A stretch of 64,000 nt of DNA from the NCBI RefSeq assembly GCF_007747445.1, contig NZ_CP036425.1:3704175-3768174 (forward strand), in the 5' to 3' direction. The DNA is from Poriferisphaera corsica. Lineage in GTDB: Bacteria; Planctomycetota; Phycisphaerae; Phycisphaerales; Phycisphaeraceae. Shown here in pieces: positions 24,962 through 37,544 of the stretch. A model generated the notes under the pieces. It was not told the DNA's origin. It did not search any database and saw only the letters and a program-made list of their open reading frames with translations. Numbering within the stretch: position 1 is the first letter of the stretch; the number at the start of each line of letters is the position of its first letter. The translations under genes were made by a program, and so were the position numbers.

Positions 24962-25053
24962 TGAGGTGTATTGTCGTGCTATGAAGTGTCACGACGGCTA
25001 TTGCATGTAACGAATAATGAATTGAAGCTTGGACGATTGTTCGAGCTTTTTTT

Positions 25054-25479
25054 ATGATTGGATTCTTTATGTTGCAATTTGGGTTGGTGTATGATGAAAA
25101 AATGACAGATGAGTCAACTGAAATGATGGGGCCGATGGCGGATTACTTTTGGAGAAAGTGGTTGCTTGGAGGCGTTTTTACTGCGTTTCTGTTTTTCGTT
25201 GGGGCATACGCGATTGTATTTGCTGAAACAGCGCTCTATTTTCCAACGCGATACAGGTTTTATTACCGTGTTCCGCTAGAAGGAGTTGAAGCTGTACTGG
25301 TGGATGTTTGCGAGGTCATGCTGGGATTAATGTTTCACTTTGGCATGTTTTGGAAGTATCAAAAGAAATTGGAGCAGTATTATCAACCGCTGCTGTATTT
25401 AACGAGTGTTGCTTTTGGTGGATGCGTATTACTGACGGCGGGGTATTCGTTATGGACGCGATTTGTTGTGTTTATGTGA
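25054..25479 (+). CDS. small polytopic membrane protein, unknown
   Basis: About 141 residues with three to four hydrophobic segments (WLLGGVFTAFLFFVGAYAIV, VDVCEVMLGLMFHFGMFW, LLYLTSVAFGGCVLLTAGYS). No domain is recognised. Several in-frame ATG codons exist at the 5' end; the one at 25102 (MTDESTEMMGPMADYFWRKW) gives a more usual membrane protein start. Between MscS and a convergent zinc-ribbon gene. Confidence 0.6.
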   Translation: MIGFFMLQFGLVYDEKMTDESTEMMGPMADYFWRKWLLGGVFTAFLFFVGAYAIVFAETALYFPTRYRFYYRVPLEGVEAVLVDVCEVMLGLMFHFGMFWKYQKKLEQYYQPLLYLTSVAFGGCVLLTAGYSLWTRFVVFM

Positions 25480-25506
25480 TCTACAAAAGACTAACTCACG
25501 AATAGG

Positions 25507-26886
25507 TTATTTCAAATCCTTGAGGTTAGCAGTGACTTCGATGTTGGCGTTGAAGAGGCGGTGAAGGCCGAAGTCTTGCTCGGCTTCGTCGAGCATGGGG
25601 ATAAGGCGGAATGTGATGGTTTGAGGTGGGGTTGGTGAGGTACGAGCGATGCCGATGGTCATTTCCCAAGGGCCGCGGCCTTGTACGGTGGCCACGGTTT
25701 TGGCGGGTTGATTATCGATTTGAACATTGAACTGATGAAGCATATCGATGGGGAGACGAGGACAATTGAAGTAGGTGTAGATCATATCGTCCTGGATCTT
25801 GAGAGAAAGCGGCGTATTCTTTTTGCGTAACGGAGCGGCGATGGCGCGGCGGAGTGTGATGAATTGATTGGAATCGTAATCGTGAGCGACGCGTCGAGAA
25901 CGGATTTTAAAGGGTTTTTCAAGGGTTTTGGTCCAACGATGAACCACGACGGATTTGTTGCGATCGAATAGTTCGGCTGAAAAGATGACTGAGAGGGTAT
26001 GTTCTTGATTGGGTTTGAGGTTATCACGTTCAATGTGCCGCATTGAGATGTCGAGTTGTTGATCGATGCTGAGGGTTTGATGGGCGGTGTGTTGTTTGCG
26101 ATAACGGGCGAAGGATTGGTTTTGGTTGAATGCGTAGGTCAGGGTGTACCTGAGTGTGAGTGGGGAGACGGGGCGATCGATGCCGAGCAGAGGGCCAGAA
26201 GCGGTGAAGGTGATGGGGAGATTATTGCCTTCAAAGATTTCGGGTTTGATCTCAAATTCAAAATGAGGAAGGATGCGGTCTTGCAGTAAGGTGAGATGAT
26301 TTCTGCTGAGTCTATTCTGTTGATAGGCTGCGAGCAAAAGCTGTGAGAAGGTGGGCTCATAGGTGATGAGCTCCGTGCGAGGAAAGGTTAGGAGCTCGGT
26401 GAGAAGTTCGGAGACTGTTTGCGGCTTGAGGTCGGAGTAGGCGGCGCGTTTGATGAGTTGATCCATTGCTTCAAGGTGTGAAGGTGAATCGGTTTGCGTG
26501 TATTCGAGTTGGTAATGAAGGATGTTGGAGGGGGTGAAAGCGGCGAGGGGCTGGCCGGTGGCGTCGGCGTAGAAGTCGATGGCGAGGTAGGTGAAGGCTG
26601 GGAGGATGAGGATGAGGCCAAGGATTTGGAGTTGGGGGCGTTTACGACGATTGCCGTGTGTGATGTAACGGATATCGTGGATGGGCCGACCACAATCGGG
26701 GCATTCGAGGAATGGGCGTGGGGAGCCGTAGAGATCGTATTTGCAGTATTTGCAGACGGGGTGGTTGTCGAGTTTTTTGCCAAGATGGGCGAGATAGATG
26801 AGGAGGAGGCCTGAGAAGATGGCGGCGCAGAGGATGAGGTAGAACAGCGCGTAGAGGATATCGTAGATGGTGTTACTCAATAACAT
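25507..26886 (-). CDS. membrane protein with zinc ribbon, unknown
   Basis: 459 residues. An N-terminal membrane helix (YDILYALFYLILCAAIFSGL) is followed by a zinc ribbon CKYCKYDLYGSPRPFLECPD ending in CGRPI (about 44-67). A second helix (LQILGLILILPAFTYLAIDF) follows, then a ~330-residue soluble, beta-rich domain. The ribbon is the CxxCxYxLxG...CPxCG type seen in the four YcxB-like proteins at 29.9-32.6 kb, although here it is N-terminal and the rest is unrelated. Function unknown; the large domain is probably extracytoplasmic. Confidence 0.75.
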   Translation of the reverse strand: MLLSNTIYDILYALFYLILCAAIFSGLLLIYLAHLGKKLDNHPVCKYCKYDLYGSPRPFLECPDCGRPIHDIRYITHGNRRKRPQLQILGLILILPAFTYLAIDFYADATGQPLAAFTPSNILHYQLEYTQTDSPSHLEAMDQLIKRAAYSDLKPQTVSELLTELLTFPRTELITYEPTFSQLLLAAYQQNRLSRNHLTLLQDRILPHFEFEIKPEIFEGNNLPITFTASGPLLGIDRPVSPLTLRYTLTYAFNQNQSFARYRKQHTAHQTLSIDQQLDISMRHIERDNLKPNQEHTLSVIFSAELFDRNKSVVVHRWTKTLEKPFKIRSRRVAHDYDSNQFITLRRAIAAPLRKKNTPLSLKIQDDMIYTYFNCPRLPIDMLHQFNVQIDNQPAKTVATVQGRGPWEMTIGIARTSPTPPQTITFRLIPMLDEAEQDFGLHRLFNANIEVTANLKDLK

Positions 26887-27016
26887 GAGATGTTCCGGAA
26901 GGTATCTCAGGGCGGGGTCTGTATGTCTATGATAACACGGGTTTGGGATGATCGTAAGATAAAATCATGGGGACGACCAGCTTGTCAAGATAGGGAAGCG
27001 AAAGCCTATCTAATGA

Positions 27017-27994
27017 TTAGGTGAGAGCGGGTTGGCGGGCGACTTTGTTGGTAGCGGTGATGGTGGTGGTGATAGCGTTGGGGTCGACATCGGTTTTTTT
27101 GATGCGTTGACGGGCTTTTTTGGCGTAATCTTTGGAGAGCTCTGTGCCAAGGTAGTCGCGGCCGAGTTGTTTTGCGGCAGCCAGTGTGGTGCCTGAGCCG
27201 GTGAAGGGGTCGAAGACGAGGTCGCCGGGATTTGAGGAGACTTTGATGATGCGATGAAGGAGCGCTTCGGGGAGTTGACAGGGGTGCCAGGTGGTGCGTT
27301 CGTGGAACGTGCCGCAGAGGCGGGACTGGTTCCATGTGTCGGAGTCGGGAGCGAAGTATTCGTCGGTGTTTTCGGTGGCGTCTTGAGGGCGAGTGTGCCA
27401 AAGGGCGGCATCGGGGAAATGGCGGAGGTACCAGGTGTCGTCGGGGAGTTTACCGGCGGGGTTAGCGCGTTTGTCGCCATAGGTTGTCATGCGGGCGGAT
27501 GGGAGTGCGATGGCGTCACGGTTGAAAGCAAAAGGCGGCTTTTTGGTGAGATTCTTGGCGTTGAGTGCAGCGGTACCGACGCAATAGAAGAGGTGTGCGT
27601 GCGAACGATTGAACTTGATTTTGCAGCGCTGGCCGAAGGTGTAGTGCCAAATGATCCAGTTGCGGAACATGAGTTTGCCTTCATTTTCGAGTTTGCGAAG
27701 GTGGAGCCGGGTTTCGGCGGCGTACTCATCGCCGATGAGGATGTACATGGAGCCTGTGGGTTTGAGCAGGCGAGTGCATGCATCGATCCATGATTCTGTC
27801 CATGCGACGTAGTCGTCGTGCTCACGGTTGTCGTCGTAATGATCGTAGTTGTAGCCGATGTTGTAGGGTGGGTCTGCGAAGATGAGGTCGAGTGAGTTGG
27901 GCTGCCAACGGGACATGATTTTGTGGCAATCACCTTGGAAGAGGCGGTTGCGGGGGGCTTTACCGACGGAGGGTTGTTGGGAGTCAGTGGACAT
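27017..27994 (-). CDS. orphan DNA (adenine or cytosine-N4) methyltransferase
   Basis: 325 residues. DLIFADPPYNIGYNYDHYDD holds catalytic motif IV (DPPY) near residue 41. The AdoMet motif I, DLVFDPFTGSGTTLAAAKQL, is near residue 255, giving the motif IV-then-I order of beta-class methylases such as CcrM and MboIIA. A target-recognition region lies between. No restriction endonuclease is encoded nearby, so it is likely a solitary methyltransferase that modifies the host chromosome; the target sequence cannot be predicted. The ATG at 27994 is chosen over 28030 by family N-terminus (MSTDSQQ... then NRLFQGDCHKIM); neither has a clear ribosome binding site. Confidence 0.88.
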   Translation of the reverse strand: MSTDSQQPSVGKAPRNRLFQGDCHKIMSRWQPNSLDLIFADPPYNIGYNYDHYDDNREHDDYVAWTESWIDACTRLLKPTGSMYILIGDEYAAETRLHLRKLENEGKLMFRNWIIWHYTFGQRCKIKFNRSHAHLFYCVGTAALNAKNLTKKPPFAFNRDAIALPSARMTTYGDKRANPAGKLPDDTWYLRHFPDAALWHTRPQDATENTDEYFAPDSDTWNQSRLCGTFHERTTWHPCQLPEALLHRIIKVSSNPGDLVFDPFTGSGTTLAAAKQLGRDYLGTELSKDYAKKARQRIKKTDVDPNAITTTITATNKVARQPALT

Positions 27995-28304
27995 AAGTAT
28001 GATTTTAATATGGATAAGATGAATGCGCAAGCTGGCGAGGTATGAGCATGAGGTTTCCCCAGAGAAGGGGGTGATCAGCGGCAGAGACGCTGGTTATCCC
28101 CTATTCGTGATGATGAGATGCTGTATACAAACGGTCATTTTGGGCTTAAAACGACAGTTTTGCATGATGTTGAGATTCAATATCATTAGAAAATTAATGG
28201 GTTGGCTGGAGTGGATAGAGGTTCTATACTAAGCCGGATTCGCCCGATCTGTGGGGTCACAGATAAAGTAGCGGGCAGTAGAAATGTCATGAAGGAGCGA
28301 AGTC

Positions 28305-28562
28305 ATGCCACACGTGATTGCTGAACCGTGCGTCGGCACCAAAGACACTGCTTGTGTTGCAGTCTGTCCCGTGGACTGTATTCACCCAACGGCGGATGAA
28401 CCTGAATTCGAAGATGCAGACATGCTTTACATCGACCCGGACACCTGCATTGATTGTGGGCTGTGTGTTGATGAGTGCCCTGTGAAGGCGATCTTCCCAG
28501 AAGAAGACTTGCCGGATGAATGGCAGTCATTTGTCGAGAAGAATGCAGAATTCTACGGCTAA
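28305..28562 (+). CDS. fdxA: 7Fe-8S ferredoxin
   Basis: 85 residues. CVGTKDTACVAVCPVDCI supplies a C-x7-C-x3-CP-x2-C (3Fe-4S plus one ligand) pattern, and CIDCGLCVDECPVKAI the C-x2-C-x2-C-x3-CP 4Fe-4S pattern, the arrangement of Azotobacter-type seven-iron ferredoxins. Acidic overall, no signal peptide, cytoplasmic electron carrier. GAAGGAG lies upstream of the ATG. Its redox partner is not evident from neighbours. Confidence 0.93.
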   Translation: MPHVIAEPCVGTKDTACVAVCPVDCIHPTADEPEFEDADMLYIDPDTCIDCGLCVDECPVKAIFPEEDLPDEWQSFVEKNAEFYG

Positions 28563-28923
28563 ATTCCCCCCATCCCCCCGTCTCCCCCCGGAAGGTTTAG
28601 GACTTGCAGGCGTCTGGTGATTGCAGGCTTGCGAGTAAACCATCCAAACAATACAGCAAGTAAATGAGCGGCTGAGCGAAATGCTTGGCCGTTTGTTTTT
28701 GCGCGGGCAAGGTGGGCTATGAGGTATGGGCAAGTTTTAGAGCATTTTTTAGTATTACTTACATGTTGACCAGTGGATTGTTTCGTAATAATTATGAATA
28801 GCATCGCCCTACTATCGATTATTTGGATCAAGAATATGGCATGTAATTACGCAAGTTGCTGTAGGTATAAAGAAGGATGAGAAGAAAGTAGACCAAACAG
28901 AGAGCGGAAGGTAGGCTTTGGGG
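28563..28923. other. intergenic stretch with C-tracts
   Basis: Starts with three C6 tracts (28565-28588 region) against a G-rich local background. Otherwise no gene, repeat or clear terminator seen. Confidence 0.5.
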
Positions 28924-29895
28924 ATGAATGAGACAGTAAAGAAGCCGATGGTGATTGTGACTGAAACGTTGTCGGATGGGCCAGCAGCATGGTTGGCAGA
29001 ACGCGCGGAAGTCGTGTGGTGTCCACATACGGATACTGAGAAGTTGAATGAGTTGCTGCCAAAGGCTGATGGGTTGGTGGTGAGGACTTATACATTGGTG
29101 AATGAGGCGTTGCTAGCGAAGGCGGGAAATGTGAAGGTGATTGGTCGGGCTGGGGTTGGGCTGGATAATTTTGATTTGGATGCATGTAAGGATGCGGGGG
29201 TGAGAGTGGTGTATACGCCGGACGCAAATTCGCAGGCTGTCGTTGAGTATGTGATTGCGTTGATGCTGGATGAACTTCGGCCGCGGACAGATGTGCCGAC
29301 GGGGTGTGATGCGGAGATGTTTCATCAGTTGAGGAAGACGGAGATTGGGTTGCAGCTGGATCAATTAACACTGGGAATTGTGGGGTTTGGCCGCGTTGGG
29401 AAACGGTTGGGACGAGTGGCGCATGCCATCGGAATGAAGGTGATGGTGGCGGAGGTTTTGCCTGAGTCAAAATTAAGGGGAGCGGTGGAATATCCGTTTG
29501 AATATGTGACGCATGATGCGTTGTATCAGGGGAGCGATATTGTGTCGGTGCATGTGGATGGTCGGGCGGAGAATCGGCACATGCTGAATGCGGATGTGTT
29601 TGAGATGTTGAAGCCGGAGGTTTTGCTAATTAATGCGGCGAGGGGGTTCTTGCAAGATAACGATGCGATGCGTGCGTATGCATTACTGAATCCGGATGCG
29701 CGGATTGTTTTGGATGTGCATGATCCGGAGCCGATCCCTCCCGGAAGCGAATATCCGCTCCACGGGTTGGAGAATGTTAGGCTGTTGCCACATATTGCGT
29801 CACGGACTAATCAAGCATTAGAGAATATGTCGTGGGTCGTGCGGGATGTTGATGCGGTACTACGGGGCGTTGAGCCGATGTTTGCAAAGGTGTGA
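28924..29895 (+). CDS. D-isomer-specific 2-hydroxyacid dehydrogenase
   Basis: 323 residues from the ATG at 28924 (a TTG two codons earlier is unlikely; AAGG lies upstream). Substrate-binding part KVIGRAGVGLDNFDLDACKD; Rossmann motif LGIVGFGRVGKRLGRVAHAI; catalytic Arg in LLINAARGFLQDNDAM; Glu in VLDVHDPEPIPPG; His in RLLPHIASRTNQ. All three catalytic residues are present. Such enzymes reduce 2-keto acids with NAD(P)H; the length and lack of an ACT domain resemble short phosphoglycerate-dehydrogenase-like or hydroxypyruvate-reductase-like members, and the substrate is open. Strongly G-biased codons. Confidence 0.9.
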   Translation: MNETVKKPMVIVTETLSDGPAAWLAERAEVVWCPHTDTEKLNELLPKADGLVVRTYTLVNEALLAKAGNVKVIGRAGVGLDNFDLDACKDAGVRVVYTPDANSQAVVEYVIALMLDELRPRTDVPTGCDAEMFHQLRKTEIGLQLDQLTLGIVGFGRVGKRLGRVAHAIGMKVMVAEVLPESKLRGAVEYPFEYVTHDALYQGSDIVSVHVDGRAENRHMLNADVFEMLKPEVLLINAARGFLQDNDAMRAYALLNPDARIVLDVHDPEPIPPGSEYPLHGLENVRLLPHIASRTNQALENMSWVVRDVDAVLRGVEPMFAKV

Positions 29896-29906
29896 ATCGG
29901 TGGGGA

Positions 29907-30533
29907 TTAGTAGTTGGAATAGTGGATGCCATACTGTGAGTTTTGGATGTCATTGATGGCGATGCGCCCGCATTCAGGGCAGGTATCGTGGAAGCTGTTG
30001 CGCAATTTATAGTTGCAGGACAGGCAGCGGCCAATGGTTTGGATGATGATGCGGAGGGTTTCGTGATAGTCTTCATCGCATGTAAAAAAACGGCGATGCA
30101 GAATTAAAGTTTGACCTTCGGAGTAATTGAGCACTATTTTTTGGCTGGTACACATCGCTTTCGAGAGCGAATCTCGGATAAATTCACGACGTTCACCTGT
30201 TGCGAGGACTTGCGTAATTTGCTCGTGATCAAGCTCGAATTCAAATGCTTGAGTCCACCACACATCTGATTGAAATGCAGAACGAATCAAATATTTCTTT
30301 AATAAGATGACGACTAATACCTCAAAAGGTATGAGCATTATCGCGAGCAAAAGTCCGATTACGCCGGTCATTATGGCAAGAGATATCATGAAAAAAGCAT
30401 CAACTATGATTAGGGCAAAAACCATAAAGGTTAGGCTATTGAGTACGGTATTCGATTCTTTGCCAAGCTCATAATTAATGTAATCGACAAGGTCGTATTG
30501 ACCTGAAGCGTGTATTGTTCGGTCTGTTTGCAC
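29907..30533 (-). CDS. YcxB-like membrane protein with C-terminal zinc ribbon (paralogue 4)
   Basis: About 208 residues. Start set at a GTG (30533) with AAAAGG upstream, 17 bp after the stop of the preceding gene; the longer frame to 30698 overlaps that gene and its extra residues are only a shadow. Layout: short beta segment (TIHASGQYDLVDYINYELGK), two membrane helices (FMVFALIIVDAFFMISLAIM; GLLLAIMLIPFEVLVVILL), a YcxB-like domain ending TLILHRRFFTCDEDYHETLR, and the ribbon CLSCNYKLRN...CPECG. It is last in a tandem set of four. Function unknown. Confidence 0.72.
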   Translation of the reverse strand: MQTDRTIHASGQYDLVDYINYELGKESNTVLNSLTFMVFALIIVDAFFMISLAIMTGVIGLLLAIMLIPFEVLVVILLKKYLIRSAFQSDVWWTQAFEFELDHEQITQVLATGERREFIRDSLSKAMCTSQKIVLNYSEGQTLILHRRFFTCDEDYHETLRIIIQTIGRCLSCNYKLRNSFHDTCPECGRIAINDIQNSQYGIHYSNY

Positions 30534-30550
30534 TGTTTTACCTTTTGGAA

Positions 30551-31291
30551 TTATTGCTGCGTGCTTTGTTTTTCTATTTGATCGAGAAGATGGTCGCCGC
30601 ATTCGGGGCATGTGAGTGATTCGCTGCCAGTGAGGTCGTATTCGCATTTGGCGCAGTCGCGGATTTCGCGGTAAAGCTTGAGACGGAAATTGAGCCAATC
30701 GTCATTTGATGCGAAGAAACGTCTGGGGAGGACGATGAAGTCGTCTGCAGAGCGGAAGTAGATGATGTCTTTGCGGAAGTAGATGTTTGAGAAGGCTGAC
30801 CAAATGAGCCGAATGTAGATACGGTCGTCATACCAAGCGATGGCGTCTTCGTCGATGATGACGGCACTGGGGATGTGGACTAATCGTGAGTTAGTGAGTT
30901 GAGATTTACGCTTTGACCATGTTTTGGAGAGAACACGGTTGTAAAGCAGGAAGACGAGGAAGAGCGGAGTAAAGATGATGCCGATGGATGCGAGGATCTC
31001 GGCCATATTAGTTTGCTGATCGATGAGTTCGCGGATGCACCAAAGCATTGGGTAGAGTGATACGAGGAGAAGGACGATAACGGCGAAAATGTTTGACCAG
31101 AAACTGCTTTCTTGATCGGTTATGATTTTGTGGAGTTGTTTGTAGTCGTCGACCTTGTATTGGCCATGGGTTTGGACAGGAGCGGATTCCCAATCCCAAG
31201 TGTGGGTTTCGGGATCGGGCTGCGCGAACTCTGAGTCGCCTGTTTCCAGCATATTTTTGGCTTGCGAGGTGTTGGAATCGGTATCTGACAT
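30551..31291 (-). CDS. YcxB-like membrane protein with C-terminal zinc ribbon (paralogue 3)
   Basis: 246 residues. An N-terminal extension is rich in Ser, Asp and Glu, then VQTHGQYKVDDYKQLHKIIT, two helices (FAVIVLLLVSLYPMLWCI; EILASIGIIFTPLFLVFLLY), and a YcxB-like core with IYIRLIWSAFSNIYFRKDII and DFIVLPRRFFASNDDWLNFR. The ribbon CAKCEYDLTGSESLTCPECG follows. The PKR/PRR-x-F before the last helix is typical of the YcxB-like family. Second-to-last gene of the tandem array. Confidence 0.75.
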   Translation of the reverse strand: MSDTDSNTSQAKNMLETGDSEFAQPDPETHTWDWESAPVQTHGQYKVDDYKQLHKIITDQESSFWSNIFAVIVLLLVSLYPMLWCIRELIDQQTNMAEILASIGIIFTPLFLVFLLYNRVLSKTWSKRKSQLTNSRLVHIPSAVIIDEDAIAWYDDRIYIRLIWSAFSNIYFRKDIIYFRSADDFIVLPRRFFASNDDWLNFRLKLYREIRDCAKCEYDLTGSESLTCPECGDHLLDQIEKQSTQQ

Positions 31292-31314
31292 AGGGAGTTT
31301 GTAATAATGTTTGG

Positions 31315-31941
31315 TTATTGTGTGGAGAGTTTATTGATTTGCTTGAGTAGATCGCTGCCACATTCGGGGCAGGTGTCGGTGGTTGAGCCGAGAAAACAGT
31401 AGTCGCAGGCGGTGCAGTTGCCGAAGCGGCGGTAAAGGGTGAGTTGGAATTGTTGCCAGGTTTGTTGGTCGGGGAAGAAGCGTTTGGGAAATGCGTAATA
31501 AAGGGTTTGATTCACTTCGATGTAAATGTGCTGTGAGGAGAAGAAAACCATGGTGACGTCATCGGTTGCGTTTGAGATGCCATGACTGTCACTGAGGCAG
31601 GAAATGATTTGATGCGAGAAGGTTAGTGTTGAGGGGGACTGAAGGTTATCTGGCGAGTAACGGATCTTCATGCTTTTGAAGTAGCGATGGATGTAGATGA
31701 GTGTCGCGGGGATGGAGCAGATGATGAACAGGTTGAGTGTGGAGAGATGATCGAGATAGAGCCAAACGAATATCGCACCGACCCATGAGAATGTGAATGT
31801 GGCGAGCATGAACCAGAGGATAAAACGGTATGGCAGGCGGATGATATTGCGCATGCGGATGCAATTGAGTTCGCGGAGGTCGTCCTGCGTGAGCGAGCCT
31901 TCAACGGAGAAAGAGATTTCGGGGAGTTGAGGTTTGGTCAT
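31315..31941 (-). CDS. YcxB-like membrane protein with C-terminal zinc ribbon (paralogue 2)
   Basis: 208 residues. ISFSVEGSLTQDDLRELNCI, two helices (FILWFMLATFTFSWVGAIFV; TLNLFIICSIPATLIYIH), then YCB-like TLYYAFPKRFFPDQQTWQQF, LYRRFGN, and the ribbon CTACDYCFLGSTTDTCPECG with tail SDLLKQINKLSTQ. Gap of 23 bp to the next gene, so one operon is likely. It shows the clearest FPKRFF motif of the set. Confidence 0.78.
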   Translation of the reverse strand: MTKPQLPEISFSVEGSLTQDDLRELNCIRMRNIIRLPYRFILWFMLATFTFSWVGAIFVWLYLDHLSTLNLFIICSIPATLIYIHRYFKSMKIRYSPDNLQSPSTLTFSHQIISCLSDSHGISNATDDVTMVFFSSQHIYIEVNQTLYYAFPKRFFPDQQTWQQFQLTLYRRFGNCTACDYCFLGSTTDTCPECGSDLLKQINKLSTQ

Positions 31942-31962
31942 GCCCGTATTGTATTTGATGTT

Positions 31963-32640
31963 CTACTCGAAGGAATGGTGAAGGATTTGTCGCGCCAGAT
32001 CGTCGCCGCATTCGGGACAAGTTGGGGAGGTTGAGCCGGTGAGATTGTAATCGCATTTCATACATTGGCCGAATTTTCGATAGACAATCATGGCAAAGGC
32101 TCGCCAATGGTCGGGGGATTCGAAATGTTCTTTTAACAAAAGCACTATGGTCTGTTCATTGGCAGCAAGACAAACGCCGGCTCGTACCCATTTAACATGC
32201 TTGACCGCGTACCAAGGCAGATAAGTGTGTGTGTATTGATCGGCCAAGCGGACATCAATGCCTTCCGGGTCGACGGTGAGGGTGTATTTGATTTTGTTTT
32301 TATAGCGTTTTCTTGCAGGTCGATTATCAATATAGCTGCTATTAACGTAACAGCTTTGCAACAATCTAAAGGTAAGAATGGAGAAGAGACCCATCAGGAT
32401 TAGCATGATTTGGTATTGTTCTTGATCTATTACTTCTTCAGTAAAAAGGGCATGAAACATGAAACCAAAAAAGATAAGGGGCAGTATGGGGAAACTGGAT
32501 TTATAACCACTACGAAGGCTGAAGGAACCTGGCTTTTCTTCGTACATGCTCTTTTTTGCACGAAGCAATCGTTTCCAATGAGTCAGATCATATTCACCCT
32601 GAACCCGGTAGCTGAACTCCGTCATGATTGGCTGTGTCAT
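31963..32640 (-). CDS. YcxB-like membrane protein with C-terminal zinc ribbon (paralogue 1)
   Basis: 225 residues from the ATG at 32640, chosen because MTQPIMTEFSYRVQGEYDLT aligns with MTKPQLPEISFSVEGSLTQD of paralogue 2. Helices FPILPLIFFGFMFHALFTEE and YQIMLILMGLFSILTFRLLQ; YcxB-like core YLPWYAVKHVKWVRAGVCLA and TIVLLLKEHFESPDHWRAF; ribbon CMKCDYNLTGSTSPTCPECG. First gene of the tandem set and divergent from dnaE (236 bp apart). Confidence 0.76.
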   Translation of the reverse strand: MTQPIMTEFSYRVQGEYDLTHWKRLLRAKKSMYEEKPGSFSLRSGYKSSFPILPLIFFGFMFHALFTEEVIDQEQYQIMLILMGLFSILTFRLLQSCYVNSSYIDNRPARKRYKNKIKYTLTVDPEGIDVRLADQYTHTYLPWYAVKHVKWVRAGVCLAANEQTIVLLLKEHFESPDHWRAFAMIVYRKFGQCMKCDYNLTGSTSPTCPECGDDLARQILHHSFE

Positions 32641-32876
32641 GTGAGATATGATCATGGAAAACGGGGCCGGCCGCAATATTGTTTTAGCGAGTTATTCAAT
32701 TTATAGAAGGGGTTATCCACGGTGTGAAATGTGGGTTGGCAGTGACTTATAACGATGGCGGAAAAATCCACACAAGGGGGAGCTGGTGAACTAAAATGTG
32801 AGCACGATGTTGCGAGGCTGTGATGACTGGGAAATCATGGTTTTTTGCCAACAGCTAACCAGAGATTGCTGAAGAT

Positions 32877-35800
32877 ATGACAGATACTGCTAAGAAGACG
32901 ATGCCTTTTGTTCACCTGCATTTGCACACGATGTATTCGCTGCTGGATGGTGGTAACAAGCCTGCGAAGTTGATGGAGAAGGTAAAGGAACTGGGGATGG
33001 ATGCGGTGGCGATCACCGATCACGGCAATCTGTTTGGGGCGGCGGACTGTTATAAGAAAGCGAAAGCAGCGGGGATCAAACCAATTCTGGGGATTGAGGC
33101 TTATGTCGCACCGGATGTGACGGGGAAGAGTGACCGGACGAAGCGCGAGTTTACGGGCGTATCGGATGGTGGATTTCACTTGGTGCTGCTTGCGGAGAAT
33201 CAAAAGGGGTGGAGCCATCTGCTAAAGCTGAGTTCGGATGCGTATATCAATGGGTTTTATTTTAAGCCACGTATGGATAAGGGGATTTTGGAGGAACATC
33301 AGGACGGGCTGATTGCGATCAATGGGCACTTGGGATCGTCGATTGCGTTTTATATGGTGAAGTATGAGCAGACCAAAGACGAGTCGATGTATGAACGGGC
33401 GAAGCAGGAAGCGATATGGCATAAAGAGACTTTTGGGGTGAACGAGAATGGGGAGCCATGCTTTTATATTGAGCTGCAGAGCCATGAGGAGAAGCTGCAG
33501 GATCAGATTAATCCGCATCTGGTGAGACTGGCAAGGGAGTTGGACATCCCGATTGTATGTGACAATGATGCTCACTTTTTGACGGCTGACGACTGGGATG
33601 CGCACGATTCGTTGTGTTGTATTTCGATGGGCAAGATTAAGCATGATGAGAATCGGCTGCATTATCCGAAAGATTTGTATGTTAAGTCGCCGGAGGAGAT
33701 GCATAAGCGGTTTGTTGATGAGTTGAAGTTGCCGGATGCGATTGAGAACACGAAGAAGATTGCGGACCGCTGTCATGTTGAGTTGGATTTTAATGCGAAC
33801 CATGCACCGGTTGTGAAAGTGAAGTCGCCGTATGCTGAGTTGCCGACGGATGCGGATGGGGCGTTGAAGCTGATTGATGATTTTGAATGTGATCATGAGG
33901 TGGGAACGAGCGAGTGGTACAAGGCATTTTGTGGTCAGTTCGAGGTCGAGCCATATAACACAGAAGTCGATACTGAATCAGAAGATGAATTGAAGCTACA
34001 GTGCGATGGGGCGCTGCGTATGCTTTCAGAGGCGGGGGCAATTTGGCGGTATGGTCGTGACGGGGTGGATGAAGCGAAGCGGGCTAGGATGGAGCGTGAG
34101 CTTCAGGTTCTGGCGGACAAGCTGATTAGTGCGTACTTCATTATTGTGTGGGACTTTGTGAATGAAGCACGGTCACGTGGGATGCCGTCGAATGCGCGTG
34201 GTTCGGGTGTGGGTACGATGGTGGGTTATGCGTTGGGTATCGCGAACGCTTGCCCGGTGAAGTATGGCCTGCTATTTGAGCGTTTTACTGACCCAGACCG
34301 AACAGAATATCCCGATATCGATATCGACATCTGCCAGAATGGGCGGCAGGAAATTATTCAGTATGTGCGTGACAAGTATGGTTATGTTGCGCAGATTATT
34401 ACGTACGGAACGTTGAAAGCGCGTGCGGTAATTCGCGATGTTGGTCGTGTGCATGACATGCCGCTGAATGAGGTGGACAATCTTTGCAAGCTGATTGGGG
34501 ATGGATTAAAGACAACGCTTGATTCGGCCCTTGAGCAAGAGCCGGACTTGAAGGCACTGTACGATGAAAATCAGTTGGTGCGTGAAGTGTATGACACGGG
34601 TCGGCGGCTTGAGGGGATGGCTCGGCATGTTGGGGTACATGCGGCGGGCGTGATTGTTGCAACACAACCGCTGGATAATATTGTGCCGCTATATAAGCCA
34701 TCAGGTACTGAGCAGATTGTGACTCAGTGGGATGGGCCGACGTGCGAAGCGATTGGTTTGTTGAAGATGGACTTCTTGGGGCTTCGTACGCTGACCATTA
34801 TTGAGCGTGCAAGGCAGTTGGCTTTGAAGTCGTTACCACCAAATACGATTCGTCGCACGATTGATCCAGATTCGGAAAGGCCGAAGTCTTGGGATCCCCT
34901 GGACCTTGAGCGTTTACATTTTGATGACACTAAGGTTCTTGACCTGTTTCGTCGCGGCGAAACCGCAGGTGTATTTCAGTTTGAATCGGGCGGGATGCGC
35001 AACTTGTTGATGGCGATGGCGCCGGACCGGTTGGAAGATTTGATTGCAGCGAATGCGTTGTATCGCCCTGGGCCGATGGAGCTGATCCCAAACTATAATA
35101 ACCGTAAGCATGATCGCGAAGAGGTGCCGAAAGTCCATGAGATTGTCGACAATCTCACGGCTGAGACTTATGGCATTATGGTGTATCAGGAACAGGTCAT
35201 GCAGGTGGTCAACCAACTTGGTTCGATTCCATTGCGTCAGGCTTATACACTCATTAAAGCTATCTCGAAAAAGAAGATGGATGTTATTAATGAGAATCGT
35301 GCGCAGTTTATTGTCGGTTCGGGTGAAAAGGGTGTTAGTGAAAAACAAGCTGGTGATTTGTTTGATTTGATCCTGAAGTTTGCAGGGTATGGTTTCAACA
35401 AATCGCACTCAACGGGTTACGCGATTGTGGCGTATCAGACGGCTTATTTGAAGTCGTACTTCCCGATTCATTACATGGCTGCACTGCTGACGTTTGAGTG
35501 CGTGAGCACTGAGAAAGTCGTTGAGTATATTGACGAATGCAAGCGTGTGCTATTGCCGAACGGGAAACGTGGTGTGGATGTCAAGCCACCGGATATCAAT
35601 CTTTCAGATATTGCGTTCTCTGTTGTTTATACCAATGATGAAGAGCGGACAGCAAGTGCGGGTCACATCCGCTTCGGGCTAAGTGCTGTTAAAGGTGTTG
35701 GCGAAAAAGCGATCATTGTCATTATTCAAGAACGTGAAAAATCTGGGCCGTTTATGTCGTTGTCAGATTTTTGCGAACGCGTGCCATCATCAGCTGCGAA

Positions 35801-36842
35801 TAAATCCACAATCGAAGCGTTAATTAAGTGCGGTGCATTTGATTCAGTACACTCGCAAGATGAACGGGCAGCGATGGTTGCTGGTGTCGAAGCGGCCATG
35901 CGTGCGGGCTCACAGGCATCGACGTTACGTGCTTCTGACGATTTCTTGTTTGGTGAGGTCGATAAGAAAGATCGCGAAGAAGGAAAGAAAGAAGATAACT
36001 TTAAGTTGCCGGAAGTGAAAGCTTGGGAGAAAAAAGAGACTCTGGAGTTTGAGAAGGAAGTGCTTGGGCTGTACGCATCCAGTCATCCGCTTGATGAGGT
36101 TGGCGATACAATCGAACGATATTCTAATATTGCGATAGAGAATATTACTGAATTGGCAACCGATACGAAAATCATCATCGGCGGCATGCTTACCCGCGTT
36201 CGCCCGACCTTCACGAAAAAGAAGGGCGAAAAAATGGCGATGATCACGATCGAATCAAAGACAAACAAGATCGACGGTGTAGCGTTTCCGAGAACATTTG
36301 AAACCTGTTCAGCGTTTTTAGTGAAAGATGAGATTGTATTTATTGAGGGTAAAGTCGATCGCCGCCGCGAGGAACCCAATATCATTATTGAGCGTGTGAT
36401 CCCAGTCAGTGAGGCGGCTGTCGAACTGACGCGCGGTGTGAAAATCATCATTAACGATAAAGCTGATCCCAAGGTTGGCACCTCGTTTAATGGTGAATTG
36501 GCTCAATTAAAAGAGCTTTTACGCCAAGCTTCCCAACGAGGAACCAAACAATCAGCAGACGTGAGCTTTGAACTACATCAAGGTGGCAAGGTTGTTACGA
36601 TTCAAAATCGTGCAATCCGTGTGTGTGTCGATGAGCATTTAACACATGGCATCACAGGTGTACTATCGCGTGTTGATAATGGATCTGCTCAATGTGAATT
36701 GCTGGGTCCAACGAAAATTCATGTAAACACAGAGAATGCTTTTGATGACTCACAACGAGATGACGAGAACATGATTGCGATGTCGTCTTCTGTACAGGGC
36801 GAGGACGCATCTTGTGGTTCGATTGATCGTTATAACAATTAA
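32877..36842 (+). CDS. dnaE: DNA polymerase III alpha subunit
   Basis: 1321 residues. PHP domain at the N-terminus (FVHLHLHTMYSLLDGGNKPA; VAITDHGNLFGAADCYKKAK). Catalytic palm Asp residues in YPDIDIDICQNGRQEIIQYV (about residue 480) and LKMDFLGLRTLTIIERAR (about 630). Fingers segment ETAGVFQFESGGMRN. The HhH region and an OB fold (IIIGGMLTRVRPTFTKKKGE) lie at the C-terminal end. It is the chromosomal replicase catalytic subunit. Relative to the usual ~1160 residues it is long: there is an acidic insertion at about 340-395 (GTSEWYKAFCGQFEVEPYNT) between PHP and palm, and an extended C-terminus. Terminator follows at 36867. Confidence 0.97.
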   Translation: MTDTAKKTMPFVHLHLHTMYSLLDGGNKPAKLMEKVKELGMDAVAITDHGNLFGAADCYKKAKAAGIKPILGIEAYVAPDVTGKSDRTKREFTGVSDGGFHLVLLAENQKGWSHLLKLSSDAYINGFYFKPRMDKGILEEHQDGLIAINGHLGSSIAFYMVKYEQTKDESMYERAKQEAIWHKETFGVNENGEPCFYIELQSHEEKLQDQINPHLVRLARELDIPIVCDNDAHFLTADDWDAHDSLCCISMGKIKHDENRLHYPKDLYVKSPEEMHKRFVDELKLPDAIENTKKIADRCHVELDFNANHAPVVKVKSPYAELPTDADGALKLIDDFECDHEVGTSEWYKAFCGQFEVEPYNTEVDTESEDELKLQCDGALRMLSEAGAIWRYGRDGVDEAKRARMERELQVLADKLISAYFIIVWDFVNEARSRGMPSNARGSGVGTMVGYALGIANACPVKYGLLFERFTDPDRTEYPDIDIDICQNGRQEIIQYVRDKYGYVAQIITYGTLKARAVIRDVGRVHDMPLNEVDNLCKLIGDGLKTTLDSALEQEPDLKALYDENQLVREVYDTGRRLEGMARHVGVHAAGVIVATQPLDNIVPLYKPSGTEQIVTQWDGPTCEAIGLLKMDFLGLRTLTIIERARQLALKSLPPNTIRRTIDPDSERPKSWDPLDLERLHFDDTKVLDLFRRGETAGVFQFESGGMRNLLMAMAPDRLEDLIAANALYRPGPMELIPNYNNRKHDREEVPKVHEIVDNLTAETYGIMVYQEQVMQVVNQLGSIPLRQAYTLIKAISKKKMDVINENRAQFIVGSGEKGVSEKQAGDLFDLILKFAGYGFNKSHSTGYAIVAYQTAYLKSYFPIHYMAALLTFECVSTEKVVEYIDECKRVLLPNGKRGVDVKPPDINLSDIAFSVVYTNDEERTASAGHIRFGLSAVKGVGEKAIIVIIQEREKSGPFMSLSDFCERVPSSAANKSTIEALIKCGAFDSVHSQDERAAMVAGVEAAMRAGSQASTLRASDDFLFGEVDKKDREEGKKEDNFKLPEVKAWEKKETLEFEKEVLGLYASSHPLDEVGDTIERYSNIAIENITELATDTKIIIGGMLTRVRPTFTKKKGEKMAMITIESKTNKIDGVAFPRTFETCSAFLVKDEIVFIEGKVDRRREEPNIIIERVIPVSEAAVELTRGVKIIINDKADPKVGTSFNGELAQLKELLRQASQRGTKQSADVSFELHQGGKVVTIQNRAIRVCVDEHLTHGITGVLSRVDNGSAQCELLGPTKIHVNTENAFDDSQRDDENMIAMSSSVQGEDASCGSIDRYNN

Positions 36843-36866
36843 ACTATCTATAACATCAATATAAAC

Positions 36867-36897
36867 AAAGGAATCTGCTCCTGTAGGTTCCTTTTTA
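36867..36897 (+). terminator. intrinsic terminator of dnaE
   Basis: Stem AAAGGAA (36867-36873) with TTCCTTT (36888-36894) followed by T residues. Confidence 0.75.
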
Positions 36898-36992
36898 TAT
36901 TTTGGATGTTTTCCCCACCTATTCAAATGATAATCATATCGTTTAATCTGATGGTATTCGCCTGATATAGTTCAATATCCAAGGAGACTACC

Positions 36993-37544
36993 ATGGCGAA
37001 AGTAATCATTATTGGTGATGGCCCAGCGGGCCTAAGCGCTGCATTGTATTTAGCGAAGGCAAAATATACGACTGTGGTCTATGGCCAAGACAAGACACCA
37101 ATGCATTACGCGATGGTTCACAACTATCTCGGCATTCGTGAGATTTCTGGCCCGGACTTTCAAAAGAATGCTCGCACACAAGTCATTGATATGGGTGCTG
37201 AAATAGTTGACGAGCAAGTGACGAAAATTGCAATTGCAGACGACGGGTTCACCATTAAAACTGCCGTTGGCAAAATCGATGAGGCTAAATATGTCATCAT
37301 CGCTGCTGGCAGAAACCCTGAATTAGTTACAGGTGTGGGATTAAGTTTAAATGATCAGAAAACTGTTGAGGCAGATCGCAATGGCCGCACGATGGTTCCC
37401 AATTTATACGTAACGGGTTGGTCGACAAGGCCGGACAAAATTCAAGCGATTATCTCGGCAGGAGACGGCGCCGCGGCGGCACTCGATATACTCTCAAAAG
37501 AAGCGGGTAAAGATATCCACGACTTCGATAATCTCGAAAAATAG
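36993..37544 (+). CDS. minimal FAD-binding oxidoreductase (thioredoxin-reductase-like)
   Basis: 183 residues. AKVIIIGDGPAGLSAALYLA is the FAD GxGxxG motif and VPNLYVTGWSTRPDKIQAII corresponds to the second FAD-binding motif of the thioredoxin reductase fold. The NADPH domain and the redox CxxC that would lie between are absent, so the protein consists of only the FAD module. Such short homologues exist in other bacteria and archaea; the electron donor and acceptor are unknown. AAGGAG stands 8 bases before the ATG. Confidence 0.82.
   Translation: MAKVIIIGDGPAGLSAALYLAKAKYTTVVYGQDKTPMHYAMVHNYLGIREISGPDFQKNARTQVIDMGAEIVDEQVTKIAIADDGFTIKTAVGKIDEAKYVIIAAGRNPELVTGVGLSLNDQKTVEADRNGRTMVPNLYVTGWSTRPDKIQAIISAGDGAAAALDILSKEAGKDIHDFDNLEK

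Follow-up and report, generated by a model that had tools for sequence, protein, structure and literature searches.

The four-gene array

The window analysed here, a 64,000-nucleotide stretch of Poriferisphaera corsica (contig NZ_CP036425.1, positions 3,704,175 to 3,768,174), holds at 29907-32640 four head-to-tail genes on the - strand, whose products combine a YcxB-like membrane module with a C-terminal zinc ribbon. In order of transcription these are W4 (31963..32640; 225 amino acids), W3 (31315..31941; 208 amino acids), W2 (30551..31291; 246 amino acids) and W1 (29907..30533; 208 amino acids, from a GTG start preceded by AAAAGG). The array is real and was correctly located in a preliminary description made from the sequence: the intergenic gaps measure 21, 23 and 17 bp, where 17-24 bp had been claimed for four tandem genes, and the proposed order is borne out, with a strand, two transmembrane (TM) helices, a beta-rich domain and the ribbon following one another in the models of W4 and W2 and in the alignment of W3 and W1. 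On present evidence it is a variant of a known, uncharacterised family and not a new kind of system, its unusual points being the fusion to a ribbon, an apparent hairpin insertion within a barrel, and the fast-changing four-gene arrangement itself.

The four copies have diverged strongly, as had been noted: without the ribbon, pairwise identity among W1-W4 is 13-25%, with all six pairs scoring 3.0-7.6 standard deviations over shuffled sequences. The (P)KRxF module, which had been ascribed to all four, can be read plainly in W1-W3 as HRRFF, PRRFF and PKRFF, but in W4 it has decayed to LKEHF. At the C-terminus, the ribbons of W4 (CMKCDYNLTGSTSPTCPECG, 32005..32064), W3 (CTACDYCFLGSTTDTCPECG, 31357..31416), W2 (CAKCEYDLTGSESLTCPECG, 30596..30655) and W1 (CLSCNYKLRNSFHDTCPECG, 29967..30026), all on the - strand, share the CxxC-x11-CxxC knuckle spacing (4/4), from which zinc binding is predicted. 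The longer motif given for all of them, CxxCxYxLxGSxxxTCPECG, fits W2 and W4 without change, and is altered once in W1 (NS for GS) and once in W3 (F for L). Because the Pfam and NCBIfam rows were all sub-threshold, with no curated ribbon family over its cut-off, we claim no named family for this element.

YcxB membership and predicted fold

PF14317 (YcxB; curated cut-off 23.3 bits) recovers the array in part: W2 lies around the threshold (23.4 bits in the genome profile search, 21.0 bits by hmmscan), W3 falls below it (17.8 and 16.0 bits), and W1 and W4 are unmatched. In the counterpart array of ZRK32 (CP066225.1), a member of the same genus proposed as P. heterotrophicis (PMC10945688), proteins b (31.6 bits) and a (26.3 bits) pass the cut-off and c and d are unmatched. 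All four window proteins are found, however, by a ribbon-free profile built from 12 ribbon-less YcxB proteins, with hidden Markov model (HMM) E values (Z = 4000) of 5.8e-8 for W4, 9.1e-8 for W2, 1.3e-7 for W3 and 4.9e-5 for W1. Ribbon-free alignments against 12 ribbon-less YcxB proteins gave probabilities of 97.8% for W1 with its orthologue, 95.2% for the W4 group and 96.5% for W3 with a protein of genome G035, while a negative control, tandem ribbon-tailed proteins of another family, reached 0.4% and was not significant with the YcxB HMM. W1-W4 were thus found to be homologous to independent ribbon-less YcxB proteins, and the two-TM hairpin followed by a beta domain that marks the family is present in all four (models of W4 and W2, alignment of W1 and W3). 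A Pfam scan to E 1 returned no bPH_2 rows for the four proteins, and bPH_6 matched only a relative at locus L090 (E 0.0057; 17.1 bits, below its cut-off of 22).

Two further candidates were dropped. A gene at L148:3584-4210 (about 3656583-3657209 on G000:C1), considered as a fifth family member, gave YcxB profile E values of 0.55 and 0.31, and a candidate in G023 gave an E value of 10. The former is a single-copy gene with a comparable layout, two TM segments and a ribbon tail, and its syntenic counterpart in ZRK32 is 62% identical.

Structurally, AlphaFold2 models were made for two of the four proteins, W4 and W2, from a 29-row alignment (predicted local distance difference test, pLDDT, 86.2 and 85.4; predicted template modelling score, pTM, 0.76 and 0.70, respectively). 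The two are closely alike, running strand, helix, TM, TM, helix, six strands, helix, ribbon, short helix. In the W4 model, a first strand (residues 11-17; 32590..32610, - strand), which aligns with the start of PH domains, precedes the TM hairpin (residues 52-100; 32341..32487, - strand), and the six remaining strands and C-terminal helix follow (residues 117-190; 32071..32292, - strand). Both predicted models therefore show the seven-stranded barrel or sandwich capped by a C-terminal helix that defines a PH-like fold. Against the PDB, all 50 rows for W4 were PH, FERM-F3, PTB or related domains (best Z 7.8, the N-terminal domain of SSRP1), and 49 of the 50 W2 rows were of the same kinds (Rtt106 and SSRP1 scoring highest, Z 6.9), rows being classed as PH-like by title. 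The alignments run from the strand before the TM segments to the C-terminal helix, the model range beginning at residue 5-11 in most W4 rows, and the hairpin therefore seems, in these models, to be inserted after strand 1 of the PH-like barrel. For W4 and W2, positive-inside charges in the flanks and loop of the hairpin assign both termini to the cytosol.

With YcxB matches for every member and two mutually similar models, the YcxB-like identity first proposed stands, and we hold the anatomy and family assignment of W1-W4 to be very probable. The family is widespread; YcxB of B. subtilis is described as uncharacterised (PMC8112048), and our literature search returned nothing under the names PF14317 or YcxB-like.

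The ribbon and the distribution of YcxB fusions

Outside the array, the ribbon is common. In this genome, alignment A1 has 31 further matches at E ≤ 1, of which 30 cover the ribbon only, and the 11 of those 30 that we examined hold 12 ribbon-bearing open reading frames (ORFs), every one with predicted TM segments and with the ribbon N-terminal (6), C-terminal (5) or internal (1). Among relatives, 71 of 101 have a match at E ≤ 0.001, again mostly ribbon-only. From these many ribbon-only matches, the ribbon is, as judged by sequence, a general tag carried by many membrane proteins of this lineage that are otherwise unrelated; our literature search found nothing on zinc ribbons in membrane proteins of Planctomycetes. 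This also bears on the gene at 25507-26886, which the preliminary description had set beside the array since it carries the same ribbon at its other end. The ribbon is indeed there, near the N-terminus (from residue 45), but it confers no special link, given how many unrelated membrane proteins are so tagged, and as a system member this gene was rejected: it has only the ribbon in common with W1-W4 and is missing from the ribbon-free YcxB hit list. It encodes a membrane protein with a large domain lacking a Pfam match over cut-off, and its ZRK32 orthologue is 43% identical. Ribbons also occur in longer series elsewhere, with up to nine successive ribbon ORFs at L057:5942-12934 (G070) and similar arrays at L053-L055 and L060 (G054, G058), where strongly different middle domains adjoin near-identical C-terminal ribbons (YDLRATTTGxCPEC).

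The ribbon is also the best-kept part of the array proteins, at 86% and 81% identity between the W4 and W2 orthologue pairs, where the PH part reaches 51% and 39%. This conservation, together with the attachment of the ribbon to so many other membrane proteins, is what a ribbon-driven function would lead one to expect, in which zinc, nucleic acid, or a ribosomal or chaperone partner would be the ligand of the ribbon and the YcxB part would serve only as a membrane anchor. However, the YcxB part is likewise under constraint (for W4 and its orthologue c, dN is 0.23 versus a dS of 1.32, dS being saturated for the other pairs), and most YcxB proteins do without a ribbon, which was seen at none of 30 phylum-level loci and is absent in 12 of 18 class-level genomes. 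We consider this alternative very unlikely.

YcxB proteins with a C-terminal ribbon were found in 12 genomes (this one, G000; ZRK32, G001; and G026, G028, G035, G041, G045, G079, G292, G376, G488 and G498), and in the ten outside the genus the fusion is a single gene with no other YcxB frame in the surrounding 7.4-15 kb. The preliminary description could match a four-gene array of such fusions to no known system; the array is unusual, but the fusion itself recurs singly in at least ten genomes outside the genus. Within the class (Phycisphaerae), 24 genomes matched, of which six were dropped because their YcxB frame was unconfirmed (G031, G040, G407, G419, G468, G571); in the remaining 18, seven of which had contributed to YcxB profile A7, a ribbon is carried by YcxB genes in 6, and 6, among them both genus members, have two YcxB genes side by side. 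Tandem copies thus recur, and at phylum level ribbon-less clusters are present in G216, where four consecutive genes have two YcxB modules each (L153:3753-8292) and a second multi-module cluster lies near C10:510934-515409, and in G752. The phylum search with profile A7 scored only 8 candidates per genome and failed to recover our own array at the E ≤ 1e-5 threshold, so its counts should be read as minima.

An association of tandem copies with dnaE, raised as a question in the preliminary description, was seen only in this genus. A dnaE survey of 51 genomes (50 matched, 30 loci examined, with flanks of at most 1.5 kb, some ending at contig ends) found YcxB genes beside dnaE only in the two genus members and no YcxB frame near dnaE at the 28 loci outside it, and we reject a functional link on this ground. 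This does not draw on a list of ORFs upstream of dnaE, which holds good only where dnaE is on the + strand. In G011 (L132), an ORF with an N-terminal ribbon and no YcxB match stands beside dnaE.

Divergence, assembly and relation to known systems

ZRK32 holds a syntenic four-gene array flanked, as here, by dnaE and a hydroxyacid dehydrogenase gene, with clear orthologues for W4 (c, 66% identical) and W2 (b, 45%), a probable one for W1 (a, 24%) and no clear one for W3 (best identity 30-32%), the remaining ZRK32 protein, d, being a relative of the W4/c lineage. Set against DnaE (91%), the dehydrogenase (79%) and a DNA methyltransferase (88%), these values indicate that the array genes diverge faster than their surroundings and that one slot has turned over. 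The methyltransferase gene lies at 27017-28030; in PADLOC it matches type II models, with E 2.4e-56 at best, and also an orphan type.

Such uneven rates (66, 45 and 24%, one unmatched), the one lineage-specific copy in each species, and the single-copy YcxB-ribbon genes of ten genomes are compatible with independent paralogues, that is, recent tandem duplications of one homo-oligomeric YcxB-ribbon protein, whose copies act singly and were retained for the sake of dosage or a range of partners. The shared strand and the gaps of 17-23 bp speak against that account, as do the three positions probably common to both species despite strong divergence of the genes, and the independent recurrence of tandem YcxB clusters elsewhere; we regard it as possible but less likely than not. 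Strong divergence and a changing set of copies, next to a DnaE that is 91% identical, could also mark a fast-evolving defence or immunity array directed against phage, toxins or membrane-active peptides, for which bacterial PH proteins of bacteriocin operons offer an analogy (PMC8657885). However, PADLOC gave nothing better than DrmB (E 0.013), which the ribbon end of W3 matched, PHROG gave no match beyond E 0.03, the array occupies the same chromosomal place in both species, and a table in PMC7783415 lists no bacteriocin cluster for P. corsica KS4. Defence is thus, in our judgement, highly improbable.

We tentatively favour a mixed oligomer, in which W1-W4 would be four diverged subunits of one membrane-anchored PH-like (YcxB-type) assembly made from a single transcription unit. 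Each subunit is predicted, with good support, to have both ends in the cytosol and the zinc ribbon after the C-terminal helix of the barrel, and since the hairpin would be inserted after barrel strand 1, the barrel would sit directly on the inner face of the membrane. The barrels may join edge to edge, with the TM hairpins as a bundle, in the manner of solved bacterial PH proteins, which form C5 and C12 rings via their sheet edges; oligomerisation of membrane-bound bacterial PH proteins as transporters or pores has been suggested by the same authors (PMC2817789). The ribbon would then serve as a cytosolic docking tag that these subunits share with numerous further membrane proteins of the lineage. 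Tandem organisation, the independent clustering of YcxB genes and the bacterial PH rings all point towards such an oligomer, which we think possible but somewhat short of an even chance, and we say the same of our favoured explanation as a whole, anatomy plus mixed oligomer. The fast divergence and copy turnover between the two species fit a module facing a changing partner. Least certain is the role of the assembly, which might maintain the envelope or handle a peptide or lipid that acts on membranes. The analogy is with two pairs of two-TM bacterial PH proteins, YdbS/YdbT and DdE/DdF: ydbST depends on sigmaW and is induced by salt (PMC3498285), and export of EntDD14 requires both DdE and DdF (PMC8657885). 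We judge such a role unlikely. More doubtful still is the fullest version, a PH-like hetero-oligomeric ring, pore or peptide/lipid-handling complex whose subunits are quickly swapped or diversified and whose ribbon code recruits a partner common to dozens of membrane proteins.

Several results weigh against the mixed oligomer or its premises. The architecture does not require one, since ten of the 12 genomes carry a single YcxB-ribbon gene; monophyly of the array is neither supported nor rejected (approximately unbiased test, p 0.209); and no common gene neighbour was apparent by eye among other copies at nine loci. The PH assignment rests on consistency, because the Z scores of W4 and W2 are middling (under 8) and Foldseek alone gave no E ≤ 0.001 for the modelled fold against the PDB; a sequence search of solved structures returned 24 weak, chance-like rows (best E 0.021). 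The single transcription unit for W4-W1 is suggested by gene spacing. Its promoter presumably lies within the 236 bp between the array and the divergent dnaE (32641..32876; dnaE start 32877), where a consensus scan found no sigma-70-like site; a promoter and terminator scan gave 2 promoter-like sites versus 4.6 expected and 0 terminators versus 2.6 expected, and an Rfam scan over 25000-37000 yielded nothing useful. Part of this region may be coding: the reading frame of the 36 bp upstream of W4 (32641-32676) is conserved in ZRK32 gene c as far as a TTG, with three synonymous and three replacing changes, so W4 may start at TTG 32676, giving 237 amino acids. Finally, the analogy with YdbS/YdbT crosses a family boundary.

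More broadly, the array and its counterpart in a second species provide a natural set of diverged subunits for asking whether, and with whom, YcxB modules assemble, and the recurrence of this ribbon on so many unrelated membrane proteins within a single class raises the question of its cytosolic recogniser.

Compared with known systems, W1-W4 are closest to the YcxB family (PF14317), sharing the N-terminal strand, two TM helices, PH-like beta domain and (P)KRxF segment, and they differ from it in the C-terminal zinc ribbon, in the four tandem single-module genes, and in that its profile misses W1 and W4 and finds W3 only below cut-off. The G216 cluster at L153, an example from Planctomycetota, likewise comprises four consecutive YcxB genes, but these have two modules per gene and no ribbon. 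The ribbon-tailed arrays of family f5 genomes (G054, G058, G070; L053-L060) match ours in being tandem and in having a C-terminal ribbon that adjoins a membrane segment, whereas they have no YcxB domain and run N-terminal TM, long middle domain, second TM, ribbon. YdbS/YdbT and DdE/DdF (bPH_2 or PHb2) resemble W1-W4 in their two TM helices with a cytosolic PH-like domain and in their adjacent genes, a multi-module partner being a further likeness (PMC8657885); they belong to another Pfam family (bPH_2), lack a ribbon, and are nowhere said, in the accounts consulted, to have their TM helices placed behind strand 1.

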